Origin: Halogeometricum limi
GTDB taxonomy: Archaea > Halobacteriota > Halobacteria > Halobacteriales > Haloferacaceae
DNA: 64,000 nucleotides
Assembly (NCBI RefSeq): GCF_900115785.1
Contig: NZ_FOYS01000002.1
Location: 496,001 to 560,000, forward strand
Direction: 5' to 3'
Shown: positions 6,572-17,250 of the stretch, one piece after another
Numbering within the stretch: the first letter of the stretch is position 1
Layout: the number at the start of each line of letters is the position of its first letter
The notes under the pieces: generated by a model
The model's database searches: none
The model's input: the letters and a program-made list of their open reading frames with translations, nothing else
Told to the model about the DNA's origin: nothing
Made by a program: the position numbers and the translations under genes

Positions 6572-7522
6572 CTAACTCCGTTCGAACAGGTTGTGACGGG
6601 GGCGCGATACCGACTCGGCGGGTGCGCCCTGGCAGTACATACTCAGTTCGAGTCCGTATCGCTCCCCCTCGTACTCGATATACCAGCGATCAGCCTCGGG
6701 CAACAACGCTCCCTCCTTCCCGAGGGTGTCCCAGAGACTGTCGAACTCGGGAAGGCGAGTCGGACTCCGCCGACGGTACTTATCCGCGATGGCTCGCCTG
6801 ACGATTGTTTCCTGTTCGGAACTGAGGCTGTTCAGTCGGACGAGGCATCGTTCGGCCATGAGCGCTCGAAAGCCCTCGGCGTCGGAAGCGACCTGACGTG
6901 CCTCGTACTCGTAGACGGATTGCTCCGTCGAGGACTCACCGTGAACCGTGACCTCGTAGGCCCGGTCGTTCCACCGAATCCAACACGAATCGAGCGTCGC
7001 CAAGAGCGAGGACGCCGTCCCGTGAGGATACAGGACCGGCGATGCCGAGTGGAGAAGCGCGTTCTCGGGGTGAGTCCACGTCCGATAGACTCCACCGTAC
7101 ACGACCGAACGGAGAGCCTGACGATCCACCGGTGGAAGCTCGCCGAACGAGTAGTTGGGAGTGTCTTCAGACGCCTCCTGCTCGGGCCTCCACTCGACGC
7201 GCAGGAGGAGTGCGGGAAGCGTTTTTGCGGTGCTTTTTGCGAGTGAAACCTCGTAGTACGCGCCGTCGAAGACGACGTAGGAGTCGTTCTTCAGCGGACG
7301 CGGTCCGTAGAACGCGGTCGCCGTTCCCCCACGAATCGCGCGCACCGCCAAGCGTCTCTGAGCGGGTGCGTACGCCGGTGGGACCGCTTCGACGGGGTCG
7401 ATTGGGCGAGCAATCGCTTCGTACTCACAGTAGTCGTCCGTGTCTCGCGGAGGAAGTACCGACGAGGCGCACCCGGTCAGGATGGAGAGGCTCGACGCGA
7501 CCATCGCTCGGCGCGAAATCAT
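6572..7522 (-). CDS. Tat-type lipoprotein of unknown function
   Basis: A 316-residue protein beginning ISRRAMVASSLSILTGCASS: twin arginines, short hydrophobic stretch and a Cys lipobox, so probably Tat-exported and lipid-anchored. The mature part has no domain I recognise; it has SYVVFDGAYYEVSLAKSTA and two later segments with the same YE(V/Y) pattern (DRAYEVTVHGESS, RWYIEYEGERYGLELS), suggesting repeated beta units. ATG 7522 overlaps the stop of the upstream lipoprotein gene by ATGA, so the two are almost certainly cotranslated. The frame is open 188 codons further upstream, but that extension overlies the neighbouring gene and is rejected. Confidence 0.75.
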   Translation of the reverse strand: MISRRAMVASSLSILTGCASSVLPPRDTDDYCEYEAIARPIDPVEAVPPAYAPAQRRLAVRAIRGGTATAFYGPRPLKNDSYVVFDGAYYEVSLAKSTAKTLPALLLRVEWRPEQEASEDTPNYSFGELPPVDRQALRSVVYGGVYRTWTHPENALLHSASPVLYPHGTASSLLATLDSCWIRWNDRAYEVTVHGESSTEQSVYEYEARQVASDAEGFRALMAERCLVRLNSLSSEQETIVRRAIADKYRRRSPTRLPEFDSLWDTLGKEGALLPEADRWYIEYEGERYGLELSMYCQGAPAESVSRPRHNLFERS

Positions 7523-8019
7523 ATGCACCCGTAGGAACCGCTCGGGCCGTAGTTGGCGACGACGACATCGAACCCTAGTTTCACGCCGCCCGCGCAACTG
7601 GTCTCGACCCATCCGATGACGTGGTCGTCGGCGTAGACGACGACGACGAACACGGTGTCGTAGTACGGTTCCTGCATGGCCCATTGCTGACTCTCTCCGG
7701 GGTTCAACGTGTACCGTCCGTACAGGGTGGCTCGTTCCGGAAACTGGAGCGACGACGTGGTTTGAGACACCCCAGTATCGTAGACGCCGACTCCGGCATT
7801 CCCCATCTGCGTGGTATAGTCGCTCCCGTTCGTCTGGATGACTCGAACGTCCAGCGGCGACTCGGCGGTCCACAGTTCGAGGGTGTAGGTCTCGTTCGCC
7901 TCGTTCGAGAGATTCATCATCACCGGGCGTTCCTGCGGCCCCGGATTCAACAACGGGCTTCCCACACACCCCGCGAGGACGAACACGAAGATCAGACCAC
8001 AGAGCGGTAGCCGTCGCAT
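7519..8019 (-). CDS. Small lipoprotein, first gene of a two-gene operon
   Basis: A 166-residue predicted lipoprotein. The N-terminus RRLPLCGLIFVFVLAGCVGS is a signal peptide with lipobox LAGC at 15-18. The mature domain looks like a small beta-sandwich (NETYTLELWTAESPLDVRV, then LYGRYTLNPGESQQW), similar in style to haloarchaeal extracellular beta-sandwich proteins. Two Cys near the C-terminus (SCAGG and the penultimate YGC) could form a disulphide. TATA-like CGTTATTG is about 30 nt upstream. It overlaps the next gene by ATGA. Function unknown; an envelope-associated complex with its partner is inferred. Confidence 0.75.
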   Translation of the reverse strand: MRRLPLCGLIFVFVLAGCVGSPLLNPGPQERPVMMNLSNEANETYTLELWTAESPLDVRVIQTNGSDYTTQMGNAGVGVYDTGVSQTTSSLQFPERATLYGRYTLNPGESQQWAMQEPYYDTVFVVVVYADDHVIGWVETSCAGGVKLGFDVVVANYGPSGSYGCI

Positions 8020-12576: not shown

Positions 12577-13197
12577 CTACCCTTCGTACGGCGGTCCTTC
12601 CGCGCGCCGGTAGGTCTCCAGGCGGCGGTAGCCGTGGATGGACCCGTCTTCGGCGAGCGTCACCTCGTACTGCCCGAGGATGTCCTGCGTGTCGGGGACC
12701 GAGTGCCGTTCGACCAGTTCGACGGTCGCGAGCCATCCGTCCTCTTCTCGCATCAGACTCGTGACGCCGTCTAAGTCGTGGCCGATGAGGGCGGGTACCT
12801 GTTCTCGAACCGTGTCGCGAACGGCGACGATACCGGTCGCGCCACCGTCGTCGCTCGGGTCAGCGTCACCCGCCTCGTCTTCGGTCTCGTCGGCCGCTGA
12901 GTCGTCGTCCACTGTCTCCTCGTCGCCGGTACTCTCGTCGTCGGTGGTCTCGTCTTCGTCCATCGTGTCGTCGTCTCCGTCTGCCGACTCCTCGTCTGCA
13001 CCATCGCTCTCCGCCGACGCCGTGTCCGGACCGTCGTCGCTCGCCGCGCCCTGTCGGTCTTCGTCGGTCGTCTCCGACGAGTCGGCGTCGTCTACGGTCT
13101 CGTCTTCGGGGCCGTGTTGGTGACAGAACCCGTCCGCTTGCGCGGGGCGCGAACAGCGGTCACCGTCCGACGTCACGGCCTGACACTGGTCGGTCAC
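12577..13197 (-). CDS. gvpO: Gas vesicle protein GvpO with N-terminal Cys/His motif and acidic linker
   Basis: A 206-residue protein. The C-terminal part from about residue 118 (IVAVRDTVREQVPALIGHDL, DGWLATVELVERHSVPDTQD, ILGQYEVTLAEDGSIHGYRR) is the GvpO domain, an accessory factor of haloarchaeal gas vesicle formation. Most GvpO proteins I know are about 110-140 residues. Here residues 1-28 carry C5, C15, C25 and H28 (C-x9-C-x9-C-x2-H), a candidate small zinc site, followed by a long Asp/Glu/Ser/Thr linker (about 30-117). It lies 8 nt after gvpA on the same strand, so is cotranscribed. gvpN and gvpC, usually between gvpA and gvpO, are absent. Confidence 0.87.
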   Translation of the reverse strand: MTDQCQAVTSDGDRCSRPAQADGFCHQHGPEDETVDDADSSETTDEDRQGAASDDGPDTASAESDGADEESADGDDDTMDEDETTDDESTGDEETVDDDSAADETEDEAGDADPSDDGGATGIVAVRDTVREQVPALIGHDLDGVTSLMREEDGWLATVELVERHSVPDTQDILGQYEVTLAEDGSIHGYRRLETYRRAEGPPYEG

Positions 13198-13205
13198 GAG
13201 TTACC

Positions 13206-13478
13206 CTACGACGTGTCCGCTCGCTGTGGGTTCGCGCGTCCGATCTCTATCTCTTGGAGGTCTTCTAAGTCCCCCTGACTCGCCTTCTCAATTTTCGCCA
13301 TCTCTGAGGCGTAGGTCAGGAAGGTGTCGACGGAGGCGGCGACGATACGCGCCTCGACGGTCAGTATCTCGATACCGACCACGGACACCCGCGCCCAGAT
13401 GTCGATGACGATACCCTTGTCGAGGATGCGGTCTAGCACGTCCGCCAAACTGGAGCCGTCCGGACTGTCTGCTGGCAT
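13206..13478 (-). CDS. gvpA: Major gas vesicle structural protein GvpA
   Basis: A 90-residue GvpA. The core [20 protein letters not shown], then [19 protein letters not shown] and [15 protein letters not shown], matches the highly conserved coil-helix-beta-beta-helix of the rib-forming subunit. The polymer makes the gas-permeable shell wall. Haloarchaeal GvpA is usually about 76-79 residues; this one has a longer tail ([18 protein letters not shown]). ATG 13478 is preceded at about 25 nt by a clear TATA box on the minus strand (ATTAAATAA, 13501-13509). First gene of the gvpA-gvpO unit, divergent from gvpF. Confidence 0.96.
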
Positions 13479-13627: not shown

Positions 13628-14251
13628 ATGAGTTCTCATCTGTACGCGTACGGCGTTGTGGAAGCCGAAGACTTCGAGTTGGAGATGGAGGGTGTCGAGG
13701 GAGAGGGGCCGGCCGAGACGGTGACGTACCGTTCTCTCTCCGCCGTCGTGACACCCATCGACGAGATGGACGTCGAACGCACCGACGAGAACACGCGAGC
13801 ACACGACGAGGTGCTCAGAGCGGTGATGACAGAGGGCGCGGGCCGAACCGTCGTCCCGATGCAGTTCGGGATGACGTTCAAGAGCGCTCGTCCGCTGAAG
13901 AGCGTGATGCGCGGCGGCCGACGCGCGTTCCGGAAAGCGCTCATGGACGTCGACGGCGCGGTGGAGTTGGGCGTGAAAGTCGTCGCGGACGAGGATTCGA
14001 CGCTCGACCGCGAGACGGTGGGCGCGGACGTCTCCGAGCGACTCGTCGCCCTGAGCGACGGCGAAGCGGAGAACGACCTCTACTCGGACCGACTCGTGTT
14101 CAACCGCTCGTACCTTGTCGACACCGACGAACAGGACGCCTTCGGCGACGCCGTGTCCGACCTCGAAGCGGAGTACCCGGACGCTATCGTGCAGTACACC
14201 GGTCCGTGGGCACCCTACAACTTCGTCGACGTCGAGATCGGAGCGAAGTGA
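13628..14251 (+). CDS. gvpF: Gas vesicle protein GvpF
   Basis: A 207-residue GvpF/GvpL-family protein. It opens with HLYAYGVVEAEDF, the typical first strand, has GRTVVPMQFGMTFKSARPLK in the middle and ends VQYTGPWAPYNFVDVEIG, the conserved C-terminus. GvpF contacts GvpA and is thought to help initiate shell assembly. First gene of the plus-strand gvp operon; gvpG starts 1 nt after its stop. Its homologue gvpL is the sixth gene of this operon. Confidence 0.93.
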   Translation: MSSHLYAYGVVEAEDFELEMEGVEGEGPAETVTYRSLSAVVTPIDEMDVERTDENTRAHDEVLRAVMTEGAGRTVVPMQFGMTFKSARPLKSVMRGGRRAFRKALMDVDGAVELGVKVVADEDSTLDRETVGADVSERLVALSDGEAENDLYSDRLVFNRSYLVDTDEQDAFGDAVSDLEAEYPDAIVQYTGPWAPYNFVDVEIGAK

Positions 14252-14252
14252 G

Positions 14253-14504
14253 ATGTTCCTCCTCGACGACATCCTGCTGTGGCCGATTCGGAACGTCGTG
14301 GACGTCCTCCACTCGCTTGCGGTCCAGGAGATGTACGACCCCGAGTCGATTCAGAGCGACATCAAAGAGACCCAGTTGCTGTACGAGTTGGGCGAACTCG
14401 ACGACGCCGAGTACGAGGAGCGACGCGCCCGACTGGAGGCCGAACTCGACGCGGCCGAACGGGCCCGAGAGCGCCTCAGCGACAAGGTGGTCGTGCAACG
14501 ATGA
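14253..14504 (+). CDS. gvpG: Gas vesicle protein GvpG
   Basis: An 83-residue GvpG. The start FLLDDILLWPIRNVVDVLHS and the helical remainder (LLYELGELDDAEYEERRARL) match this small, coiled-coil-like accessory family. ATG 14253 lies 1 nt after the gvpF stop; its TGA overlaps the next start by ATGA. Cotranslated with both neighbours. Confidence 0.92.
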   Translation: MFLLDDILLWPIRNVVDVLHSLAVQEMYDPESIQSDIKETQLLYELGELDDAEYEERRARLEAELDAAERARERLSDKVVVQR

Positions 14505-15355
14505 CCGACGGAGAGGGAGACGAGGACGTGTCGTCGCTCGTCGCCCGCGCGGTCGAACTGAGCACGCAGGTCCTCGACAGTCTGGAGGCGGACGACGCCG
14601 ACGGCGGCGACACCGCCGACCTGTTGGACGAGTTGGAGGCTATCGCCGCCGAGGCGACGGAGTTGCTCGACGCGATGGACCTCTCGGAACTACCGTCCGC
14701 GATAGACCCCGAGGGGGTCGACGAAGTCGTCGACGAGGAGCAGTTGCCCGAGGCCGTCGCGAACCTCGACCCCGGAGAGGCGATTCGTCTCCGAAAGCTC
14801 CTCGCCGTCGTCGACATCGGCGAACTCTGGAGTTCGGTCGACGTGCGCGACGTGTGGCAGAACAAACGCGAGTTCGAAGACGCCGTCGACGAGTTCACCG
14901 ACGACGAGGGCGACGACGACGTGTCGGCGCTGGTCTCGGAGTTCACCGACGACGAAGGCGACGGAGACGACGAAGACGACGACTTCGACGTGGACGTCGA
15001 CGTCGGCGAGACGCTCTCGACGGACGACGACGTCGTCGACCTGCCGGACGCCGCCTACCAGACCGCGATACAACAGCAACTCTCCGAGACCGTGGGCGAG
15101 TTCCGGCAGAAACTCGTCGACCTCCACCGTGACCTCGCGCGTCTGCGCGAAGAGAACCGCCAGCGAACCGACCGCGTCGGCCAACCGGACTCGCGGAACC
15201 CCACCGCGCACTCGACGCTCGCGTCGACGCGGACGGCCGGCCGCGGAGACACGACGTACTCGACGGTGCCCGCCGAGACGAAGTACTCGAACGCGCCGAA
15301 CAGACGGCGCGTCTACGGCGACCGGTTCGAGGAGTACGGAGGCGACGATGCCTGA
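14501..15355 (+). CDS. Unrecognised gas-vesicle-cluster protein at the gvpH/gvpI position
   Basis: A 284-residue very acidic protein between gvpG (ATGA overlap) and gvpJ (8-bp overlap), where gvpH and gvpI normally stand. It lacks an Hsp20 domain, so it is not a typical GvpH. Visible parts are an N-terminal helical region (SSLVARAVELSTQVLDSLEA), a distinctive block at about 60-130 (LDPGEAIRLRKLLAVVDIGE then LWSSVDVRDVWQNKREFED), an Asp-rich stretch at about 130-180, a helix at about 190-225 (SETVGEFRQKLVDLHRDLAR) and a basic, Thr/Tyr-rich tail (YSTVPAETKYSNAPNRRRVY). The basic tail recalls GvpI in composition, but I cannot confirm homology. Operon position strongly implies a role in vesicle assembly. 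Confidence 0.8.
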   Translation: MTDGEGDEDVSSLVARAVELSTQVLDSLEADDADGGDTADLLDELEAIAAEATELLDAMDLSELPSAIDPEGVDEVVDEEQLPEAVANLDPGEAIRLRKLLAVVDIGELWSSVDVRDVWQNKREFEDAVDEFTDDEGDDDVSALVSEFTDDEGDGDDEDDDFDVDVDVGETLSTDDDVVDLPDAAYQTAIQQQLSETVGEFRQKLVDLHRDLARLREENRQRTDRVGQPDSRNPTAHSTLASTRTAGRGDTTYSTVPAETKYSNAPNRRRVYGDRFEEYGGDDA

Positions 15356-15818
15356 CCCCGTCCGACCCGGACGCGACTCCGACAGTCTCGCCGACGTCGT
15401 CGAACTCCTCCTCGACAAAGGCGTCGTTATCAACGCCGACATCGTCGTCTCCGTCGGCGAGACGGAACTCCTGGGAATCAAACTCCGCGCGGCCATCGCG
15501 TCGTTCGAGACGGCCTCGGAGTACGGACTGGAGTTCCCTTCGGGAACCGACATGGAGGCCGTCGAGGCCGCGAGCGACCGGCGACGCGAACGGAGCGTCA
15601 CGCCGGCGGCGAATCCGGAACTGTCGCCGTCGGGCGACTTCGCCGAACGAGACGAGGCGTCGGCCGTGAGCGACGGAGACGGCGGTGACGGAACGAACGA
15701 CGGAGGCGACGGAGACCAACGAAGCGACCGAGAGAGCGCGAACGGCGACGGAGACGTGTCGGAGACGTCGAAAGAGGGCGAGGCGACCGAAGCCGAGACG
15801 GACGGAGGCGGCGAATGA
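15348..15818 (+). CDS. gvpJ: Gas vesicle protein GvpJ with long acidic tail
   Basis: A 156-residue GvpA-like minor protein. Residues 10-70 (LADVVELLLDKGVVINADIV, VSVGETELLGIKLRAAIASF) form the GvpA/J/M core. The tail from about 75 to 156 is Asp/Glu/Gly/Ser-rich and probably disordered; it is longer than usual for GvpJ as I know it. ATG 15348 overlaps the upstream gene by 8 bp, and the stop overlaps gvpK by ATGA. Confidence 0.92.
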   Translation: MPDPVRPGRDSDSLADVVELLLDKGVVINADIVVSVGETELLGIKLRAAIASFETASEYGLEFPSGTDMEAVEAASDRRRERSVTPAANPELSPSGDFAERDEASAVSDGDGGDGTNDGGDGDQRSDRESANGDGDVSETSKEGEATEAETDGGGE

Positions 15819-16162
15819 CGACCGTCGAAGTCGGCGACGAGGGTGCGAGCGGTCTCACCGCCGTCGTCGTCGCCGTCGTCGAGATTCTCCTCGACGCCCT
15901 CGAACGCGAGGCGATACGGCGGATGGAGTCGGGGACCCTCACGGACGAGGAGATAGACCGCCTCGGGCGTCACCTCGCCACGCTCGAAGCGGACCTCGAA
16001 CGCATGAAAGAAGAGCAGGAGGTCGACGAGGAAGTCGACCGACTGCGCGGCGACCTGGATTCGCTCGTCACCGACGCACTCCATCAGGTCGACACCGACG
16101 GGCGACCCCGGACGACCGGTCGCACCGGCCCCTCGGCGAACGCGGGGGGAACCGATGAGTAG
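15815..16162 (+). CDS. gvpK: Gas vesicle protein GvpK
   Basis: A 115-residue GvpK: GLTAVVVAVVEILLDALERE and the helical RMESGTLTDEEIDRLGRHLA then LEADLERMKEEQEVDEEVDR match the family, a small alpha-helical accessory protein needed for vesicle formation. ATG 15815 overlaps the gvpJ stop (ATGA), and its end overlaps gvpL by 8 bp. Confidence 0.93.
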   Translation: MTTVEVGDEGASGLTAVVVAVVEILLDALEREAIRRMESGTLTDEEIDRLGRHLATLEADLERMKEEQEVDEEVDRLRGDLDSLVTDALHQVDTDGRPRTTGRTGPSANAGGTDE

Positions 16163-17012
16163 CGACGACTCCGGCGGCGGCGACGAATCCGCGTCGTCGA
16201 CTCGAAACGGGCGGTATCTCTACTGCGTCGTCCGACGCGACGACGACGCCGCGGCGTCGTTCGACGTGAGCGGCGTCGACGGCGCACCGCTCACGCTCGT
16301 CTCTGCGGGGGGCCTCTCGGCCGTCGTCCACGACAGGGACGAACCGTACGAATCCGACGAGACGACGCAGGTGAGAGACTGGCTGTACGACCACCAGTCG
16401 GCCGTCGAACGCGTCGGCGAGACGTTCGGGACGCCCGTCCCCTTCCGCTTCGACACCATCGTCCGCGGCGGCGACGAGGCGGTTCGCGCGTGGCTCGACG
16501 CGAACGCCGAGACGCTGAACGAGGCGTTGACGGCACTTGACGGCCGGTGGGAGTACCGCGTCGAAGTCGAGTGGGACCGCGAGGCCCTCGTCGACCGACT
16601 CACCGAAGACGACGAGCGACTCGCCGAACTCGACGACCGACTCGCCGACGCCTCGGAGGGGACGGCGTTCCTCGTAGAGAAGCAGTACGACCGACGGGTC
16701 TCCGAACTCGTCACCGAACGTCGCCGCACTCGGTCGGCGTCGCTCGACGAGGAACTCCGGCGACGGACGGCAGAGGTGGTCGAACTCGGCGACGCGCCGC
16801 AGACGCCGCTGACCGAGACGCCGTCCGGACCGACCGCTCGGTTCGCCGTCCTCGCGGACGACGACGAACGCGACGCCGTCGGGTCGTACTTGGACACCAT
16901 CGCCGACGAGGACGGCGCGTCGGTCCGGTACACCGGGCCGTGGCCGCCGTACACGTTCGCGCCCGACGCCTGCGCGCCGACGGGGGAGGATGGACCCGGA
17001 CCCGCCGAGTGA
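16155..17012 (+). CDS. gvpL: Gas vesicle protein GvpL
   Basis: A 285-residue GvpF/L-family protein. After a flexible head, GRYLYCVVRRDDDA begins the domain; the middle has GTPVPFRFDTIVRGGDEAVR, and the C-terminus VRYTGPWPPYTFAPDACAPT is the family ending. GvpL interacts with several accessory Gvps in published work on Halobacterium. ATG 16155 overlaps gvpK by 8 bp, and its 3' end overlaps gvpM by 23 bp. Confidence 0.93.
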   Translation: MSSDDSGGGDESASSTRNGRYLYCVVRRDDDAAASFDVSGVDGAPLTLVSAGGLSAVVHDRDEPYESDETTQVRDWLYDHQSAVERVGETFGTPVPFRFDTIVRGGDEAVRAWLDANAETLNEALTALDGRWEYRVEVEWDREALVDRLTEDDERLAELDDRLADASEGTAFLVEKQYDRRVSELVTERRRTRSASLDEELRRRTAEVVELGDAPQTPLTETPSGPTARFAVLADDDERDAVGSYLDTIADEDGASVRYTGPWPPYTFAPDACAPTGEDGPGPAE

Positions 17013-17250
17013 CGACGACGCCGTCGTCGACTTGGTCGACGTGCTCCTGCGAGAGGGGGCCGTCCTCGACGCCGACGTGGTCGTCACCGTCGCCGACGTC
17101 CCACTCGTCGGCATCAAACTCCGCGCGGCCATCGCCGGGATGACGACGATGACGGAGTACGGACTGTTCGCGGAGTGGGACGAACGGATGCGGGCGGAGC
17201 GTCACGAAGGTGGGCACCGGTCCGTCGAGAGCGCGGGGAATGAGATATAG
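16990..17250 (+). CDS. gvpM: Gas vesicle protein GvpM
   Basis: An 86-residue GvpA-like minor protein, last gene of the operon. Core LVDVLLREGAVLDADVVVTV and ADVPLVGIKLRAAIAGMTTM is very close to the GvpJ core. J and M are thought to help nucleate or cap the shell. ATG 16990 is inside the end of gvpL. A TATA box for the next gene (CTAAATAAG) starts directly after the stop. Confidence 0.92.
   Translation: MDPDPPSDDDAVVDLVDVLLREGAVLDADVVVTVADVPLVGIKLRAAIAGMTTMTEYGLFAEWDERMRAERHEGGHRSVESAGNEI

Follow-up and report, generated by a model that had tools for sequence, protein, structure and literature searches.

A gas vesicle operon protein of Halogeometricum limi, identified from its sequence as a long, two-domain form of GvpI

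The gas vesicle (gvp) cluster of Halogeometricum limi encodes, between gvpG and gvpJ, a protein for which Pfam and NCBIfam gave no credible match and no GvpI hit, raising the question of what this protein is and what it could contribute to vesicle assembly. The window, the whole stretch of 64,000 nucleotides that was analysed, contains the following genes around it:

12577-13197, minus strand: gvpO with a cysteine-rich N-terminal domain (PF05800, PF19067, NF045806)
13206-13478, minus strand: gvpA (NF046092)
13628-14251, plus strand: gvpF (PF06386)
14253-14504, plus strand: gvpG (PF05120, NF045779)
14501-15355, plus strand: long-form gvpI by sequence, 284 aa (operon slot and GvpI profile match)
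15348-15818, plus strand: gvpJ (NF046090)
15815-16162, plus strand: gvpK (PF05121)
16155-17012, plus strand: gvpL (NF045778)
16990-17250, plus strand: gvpM (NF046091)

The reading frame runs from ATG to TGA over 284 residues with no internal stop; its start (ATG, 14501-14503) shares an ATGA with the gvpG stop (TGA, 14502-14504), and its end overlaps gvpJ, whose ATG lies at 15348, by 8 bases. These two junctions bear out the original prediction that the gene is an integral member of the gvp operon. An upstream overlap of -4 or -8 was found in 102 of the 108 long relatives having gvpH as their nearest upstream gvp gene, where starts had been chosen close to the upstream stop, and since the overlap recurs so widely the coupling to the upstream gene is not attributable to chance. 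Among the close relatives L032, L033 and L034, dN/dS was 0.14-0.48 for the N-terminal part, 0.09-0.12 for the C-terminal part and 0.47-0.99 for the linker, and the low values within this genus indicate that both folded parts are held by purifying selection. A spurious reading frame is ruled out by this selection and by conservation across the family.

The identity of the protein became evident from its C-terminal third. Profile-profile comparison of 29 long proteins with 15 short GvpI sequences gave a match of 99.15% (P 4e-19, 86 columns), placing residues 197-281 on positions 23-113 of the GvpI profile, and a long profile of 102 sequences returned the same match (P 3.5e-19). A scan of genome contigs using the single window protein found no relative, and a profile scan of them yielded 71 loci. 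Matches were present in 45 of 170 genomes searched from the family, the long ones over nearly the whole length and the short ones over about residues 190-278 only, while tblastn hits (E 0.006-0.009) fell on annotated GvpI of 13 plasmid records from Halobacterium. A GvpI-type gene adjoins gvpJ in all 147 clusters surveyed, and in the window, too, the gene immediately precedes gvpJ within the gvpF-M operon. By sequence, then, the product of 14501-15355 is GvpI in a long, two-domain form, its core being homologous to the greater part of the short Halobacterium GvpI. That the protein would occupy the place of GvpI and consist of two parts had been anticipated, and both the profile match with the operon slot and the division into an acidic N-terminal domain and a GvpI core agree with this; the match to GvpI is clear for the C-terminal third and does not extend to the full length.

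The short GvpI of Halobacterium salinarum (WP_010904102.1) and its relatives share with the long form the slot before gvpJ and a core made of a helix followed by NPxAxST ... STVPxxPKYS ... RLYGLRL, aligned over residues 23-110 of 113. In the long form this core reads as one long helix and then SRNPTAxST ... STVPxETxYSxAPNRxRxYGxRF. The two forms differ in that short GvpI has 113-144 residues in 21 of 22 copies, is strongly basic, lacks a repeat domain and is nearly always found alongside gvpC. Taking short GvpI as proteins of about 110-145 residues with a strongly basic composition, the window protein lies outside the group with its 284 residues and pI of 4.05; median pI is 4.05 for long GvpI (n=131) and 10.56 for short (n=22). 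The basic tail that had been proposed did not hold overall, as residues 183-284 contain 16 K+R and 16 D+E. At E 0.01, NCBIfam also left GvpI of NRC-1 and one other short GvpI unmatched. Long relatives in seven plasmid records are labelled hypothetical protein, which the lack of a GvpI match in NCBIfam and Pfam would explain. Going by the names listed in the profile scan, relatives of the long type occur in Halogeometricum, Halegenticoccus, Halogranum, Haladaptatus, Haloarcula, Halococcus, Natrinema, Natrialba, Natronococcus and others.

Residues 1-182 constitute an acidic addition, which begins with a hairpin of predicted helices, continues with seven exact repeats of nine residues and ends in a linker that evolves almost neutrally. 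The parts of the protein can be laid out as follows:

14528-14674, plus strand: hairpin of two predicted helices in the N-terminal part, residues 10-58 (AlphaFold2, block pLDDT about 75-89)
14672-14860, plus strand: seven exact 9-residue repeats, residues 58-120 (lag-9 autocorrelation, run test, helix spacing in the model)
14921-15046, plus strand: acidic linker, residues 141-182 (low model confidence, dN/dS)
15047-15343, plus strand: GvpI core, residues 183-281 (profile match to short GvpI)

The repeat units are AMDLSELPS, AIDPEGVDE, VVDEEQLPE, AVANLDPGE, AIRLRKLLA, VVDIGELWS and SVDVRDVWQ, most of them predicted to form a short helix plus turn. The block LDPGEAIRLRKLLAVVDIGE, which had been picked out as looking conserved, belongs to this run of seven. 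Hydrophobic autocorrelation at lag 9 amounted to 0.54 in the window protein and 0.51 across 102 relatives, where shuffled sequences gave -0.015 (sd 0.015), and a run of at least 5 exact units was present in 74 of 131 long proteins as opposed to 0 of 655 shuffles. An AlphaFold2 model from 102 sequences (pLDDT 70.9, pTM 0.35) places helices at residues 10-29 and 35-58, then short ones at 61-67, 70-76, 79-88, 97-103 and 106-112, mostly at nine-residue spacing, followed by a longer helix at 115-134, a stretch of very low confidence at 150-178, the GvpI helix at 183-225 and a mostly extended tail; residues 8-140 modelled alone gave a broadly similar picture (pLDDT 75.5, pTM 0.48). Evolution of the linker was nearly neutral in two of three close pairs.

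Fold searches with the whole model and the N-terminal part returned no solved fold at E 0.001, and the VIA-align rows (top Z 7.9) told little, most of them being helical hairpins that covered residues 2-60. Pfam scans for the N-terminal domain, using a hand-picked set of 102 from the 131 long proteins and 80 of those 102, gave scattered weak hits only, the commonest in 4 of 80. A PDB profile hit to the LIM-domain protein 9e5c (E 1.9e-17) was discarded as a repetitive low-complexity match, being made up of 12 stretches with a best single i-Evalue of 0.021.

What could a protein of this design do? Split-GFP experiments described in the accessible part of PMC7688916 show short GvpI binding GvpH strongly and also GvpL and GvpF, and in its absence vesicles become extremely long, GvpI being dispensable. 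In split-GFP, short GvpI bound GvpC and GvpL to about the same extent according to the accessible part of PMC9501494, and the pull-downs covered by that of PMC9372576 found no binding of GvpI itself to GvpA. From these interactions and phenotypes of the short, strongly basic protein we infer those of the acidic long one, keeping in mind that the partners of the two forms need not coincide, since one is basic and the other acidic. Drawing on sequence, model and analogy, we consider it likely that the product of this long gvpI gene acts in the vesicle assembly complex as a two-sided adaptor. Its GvpI core would dock on the accessory complex of GvpL, GvpF and, where present, GvpH, and, judging from the loss of short GvpI, would keep vesicle growth in bounds. 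More tentatively, the repeat domain could be a flexibly tethered binding surface by which a second partner is kept at the complex; a stiff repeat region attached through a loose linker is how such an additional, tethered binding site would be expected to look. In the genus of the window, the adaptor would do this without a gvpH gene in the cluster.

How common the long form is was addressed in two samples. From 155 loci classed, 8 without a cluster were set aside, leaving 147 clusters with long GvpI in 124 and short GvpI in 23; two identical pairs (L084/L142 and L085/L145) reduce these to 145 distinct clusters, 123 long and 22 short. The ratio of 124 to 23 is not a random draw, because the loci were partly recruited by matches to the long GvpI of the window (L031-L079 and L085-L088), with 100 found via GvpG and hand-picked from the GvpG matches in a sample of 392 genomes. 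A fairer draw is the even sample of these 392 Halobacteriales genomes, in which GvpG was found in 163 and the long-form profile matched 163, of which, with classes read from the match list, 149 fell in the long class (E below 1e-37) and 10 in the short one (1e-14 to 1e-17), the other 4 being weak (1e-7 to 7e-4, counted as neither form). Among the salt-loving archaea sampled, long GvpI thus greatly outnumbers the short form on which laboratory work has been done, and the databases leave the long form unnamed; with 149 long-form and 10 short-form genomes, the laboratory models carry the minority form.

The survey also brought out several features of the clusters beyond this distribution. The tail of GvpJ, measured from the NAD motif to the stop, has a median of 144.5 residues in the 124 long-GvpI clusters versus 91 in the 23 short ones, the longer type being that of the window (15348-15818, plus strand). 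A C-C-C-H zinc-finger-like motif is present in GvpO of the window (12577-13197, minus strand) and its relatives, in 92 of the 120 long-GvpI clusters that show gvpO versus 0 of 21 short ones; a zinc-finger-like motif occurs in GvpC of 20 of 21 short clusters, and the module may have moved between GvpC and GvpO. At three loci (L047:4767-5582, L051:4515-5417 and L052:4343-5269, plus strand) an additional protein is encoded next to gvpO; it matches the N-terminal domain weakly, has an HSTVP motif near its end and is perhaps a diverged second GvpI. Orphan copies of the long GvpI gene, away from any gvp cluster, were seen in L039, L059, L061, L062, L066 and L087 (a Halalkalicoccus jeotgali plasmid), those of L059, L061, L062 and L066 having neighbours in common; given these six copies, the long-GvpI family may also act elsewhere.

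The two forms separate sharply with respect to gvpC. None of the 124 long clusters has gvpC, gvpD or gvpE in view (the gvpA side is out of view in 4 of them), as opposed to gvpC in 21 of the 23 short ones, the two without a visible gvpC being L119 (short clade, no gvpA side shown) and L088, where a long copy is also nearby; gvpN was seen in 50 of the 124. Among the 392 genomes, PF05465 (GvpC) matched 14: 11 strongly, comprising all 10 short-form genomes and G147, which has no GvpI match, and 3 with one weak repeat each, of which the hits in the long-form genomes G217 and G231 sit away from the gvp cluster. A strong GvpC repeat match was found in none of the 149 long-form genomes, and the window's genome showed no GvpC match and GvpN below the cut-off (best 29.6 of 266.8 bits). 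On the Halocatena marina plasmid L088, long GvpI lies beyond gvpO and a 69-aa GvpI-like reading frame between gvpG and gvpJ.

It could be argued from this separation, and from the published binding of short GvpI to GvpC, that the repeat domain stands in for GvpC and takes over part of its work on the shell, in cis or from the assembly complex. In a FastTree analysis of six concatenated Gvp proteins, however, all short clusters except L088 group in a single clade (support 99), and the fewest changes on the tree were 2 for the GvpI form, 1 for gvpC, 3 for gvpD, 9 for gvpN and 7 for gvpH. The mutual exclusion of gvpC and long GvpI thus rests on about one event, and it suggests, without showing, that the N-terminal domain does part of the work of GvpC. 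Trees of GvpF and GvpL rooted on each other as paralogs had weak deep support concerning the ancestral GvpI form. Although haloarchaeal GvpC is likewise a repeat protein of this system, not found together with long GvpI in the surveyed clusters, its repeats are about 32 residues long rather than 9 and it has a zinc-finger-like end; PF05465 did not match the window protein at E 1, and comparison of the N-terminal part with the GvpC profile gave 0.86%, leaving no support for a GvpC remnant. In Halobacterium, moreover, gvpI is on the weak F-M transcript and gvpC on that of gvpA (PMC4390858, accessible part). We therefore regard a stand-in for GvpC as unlikely, and hold equally doubtful the broader scenario that most Halobacteriales clusters build vesicles without GvpC, the 9-residue repeat domain of GvpI supplying control of shape or strength; if true, Halobacterium would be the exception, with this job placed on a separate shell protein.

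Clusters without gvpC have been noted before. As far as the accessible parts of two reviews go, that of 2015 describes five species whose vac regions lack gvpC and gvpDE, hold 11 genes and were not seen to make vesicles, subtraction placing gvpI among the 11 (PMC4390858), and that of 2022 contradicts it by assigning gvpC to the same five (PMC9501494). No mention of long GvpI or its repeat domain was found in the accessible parts of PMC4390858, PMC9501494, PMC7688916 and PMC9372576 or in a wider literature search, which mostly lay outside subscription papers, so that the association of gvpC with the GvpI forms and the 9-residue repeat may be new.

Another scenario is that the GvpI tail is shielded or regulated by the acidic N-terminal domain within one polypeptide, in place of an acidic partner that the basic short GvpI would need in trans. 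In its favour, GvpJ, GvpK and GvpM are reported to oligomerise through short basic GvpI (PMC7688916, accessible part). The difference in pI between the forms also fits, as does the net charge over the 45 residues that precede NPTA, with a median of 0 in long GvpI and +6 in short. Haloarchaeal proteins are, however, acidic in general, and an exact 9-residue repeat demands more than charge, making this scenario similarly improbable.

The adaptor reading leaves the relation to GvpH to be considered. The absence of an Hsp20 domain from the window protein was correctly foreseen, PF05455 (Hsp20-like GvpH) having no match at E 1, and GvpH, a neighbouring accessory gene of the same system whose product is a partner of short GvpI in Halobacterium (PMC7688916), shows no sequence relation to any part of long GvpI. 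In the long clusters gvpH was seen in 107 of 124 and is absent from 17, including all 5 genomes of the window's genus, where it is missing between gvpG and long gvpI. The original idea of one polypeptide combining GvpH and GvpI, for which this gap speaks, is very improbable and fails in its GvpH part, given profile values of 0.35%, 0.23% and 0.23% for GvpH against the whole protein or its N-terminal part, the 107 long clusters holding both genes, and the presence, on a different contig of the window's genome, of an Hsp20 gene of the GvpH family (163 aa). That gene need not serve vesicles, because stand-alone PF05455 matches are common: 243 of the 392 Halobacteriales genomes have one, more than have GvpG (163). 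As separate observations, L072 of the short-form clade (7280-7945, plus strand) joins GvpI to a stretch whose start resembles the start of GvpH in its relative L069, possibly a natural GvpH-GvpI fusion in which Pfam detects no remaining GvpH, and L100, L103, L112 and L129 have one to two extra unnamed reading frames between gvpH and gvpI, with a similar gap in L189.

A protein recorded as hypothetical thereby gains a name and a two-part anatomy, and existing knowledge of GvpI is seen to stem from its rarer form. This raises the testable question of how vesicle shape and strength are controlled, or whether vesicles are made at all, in clusters without GvpC, and such a compact GvpC-free cluster may be of interest for vesicle engineering.
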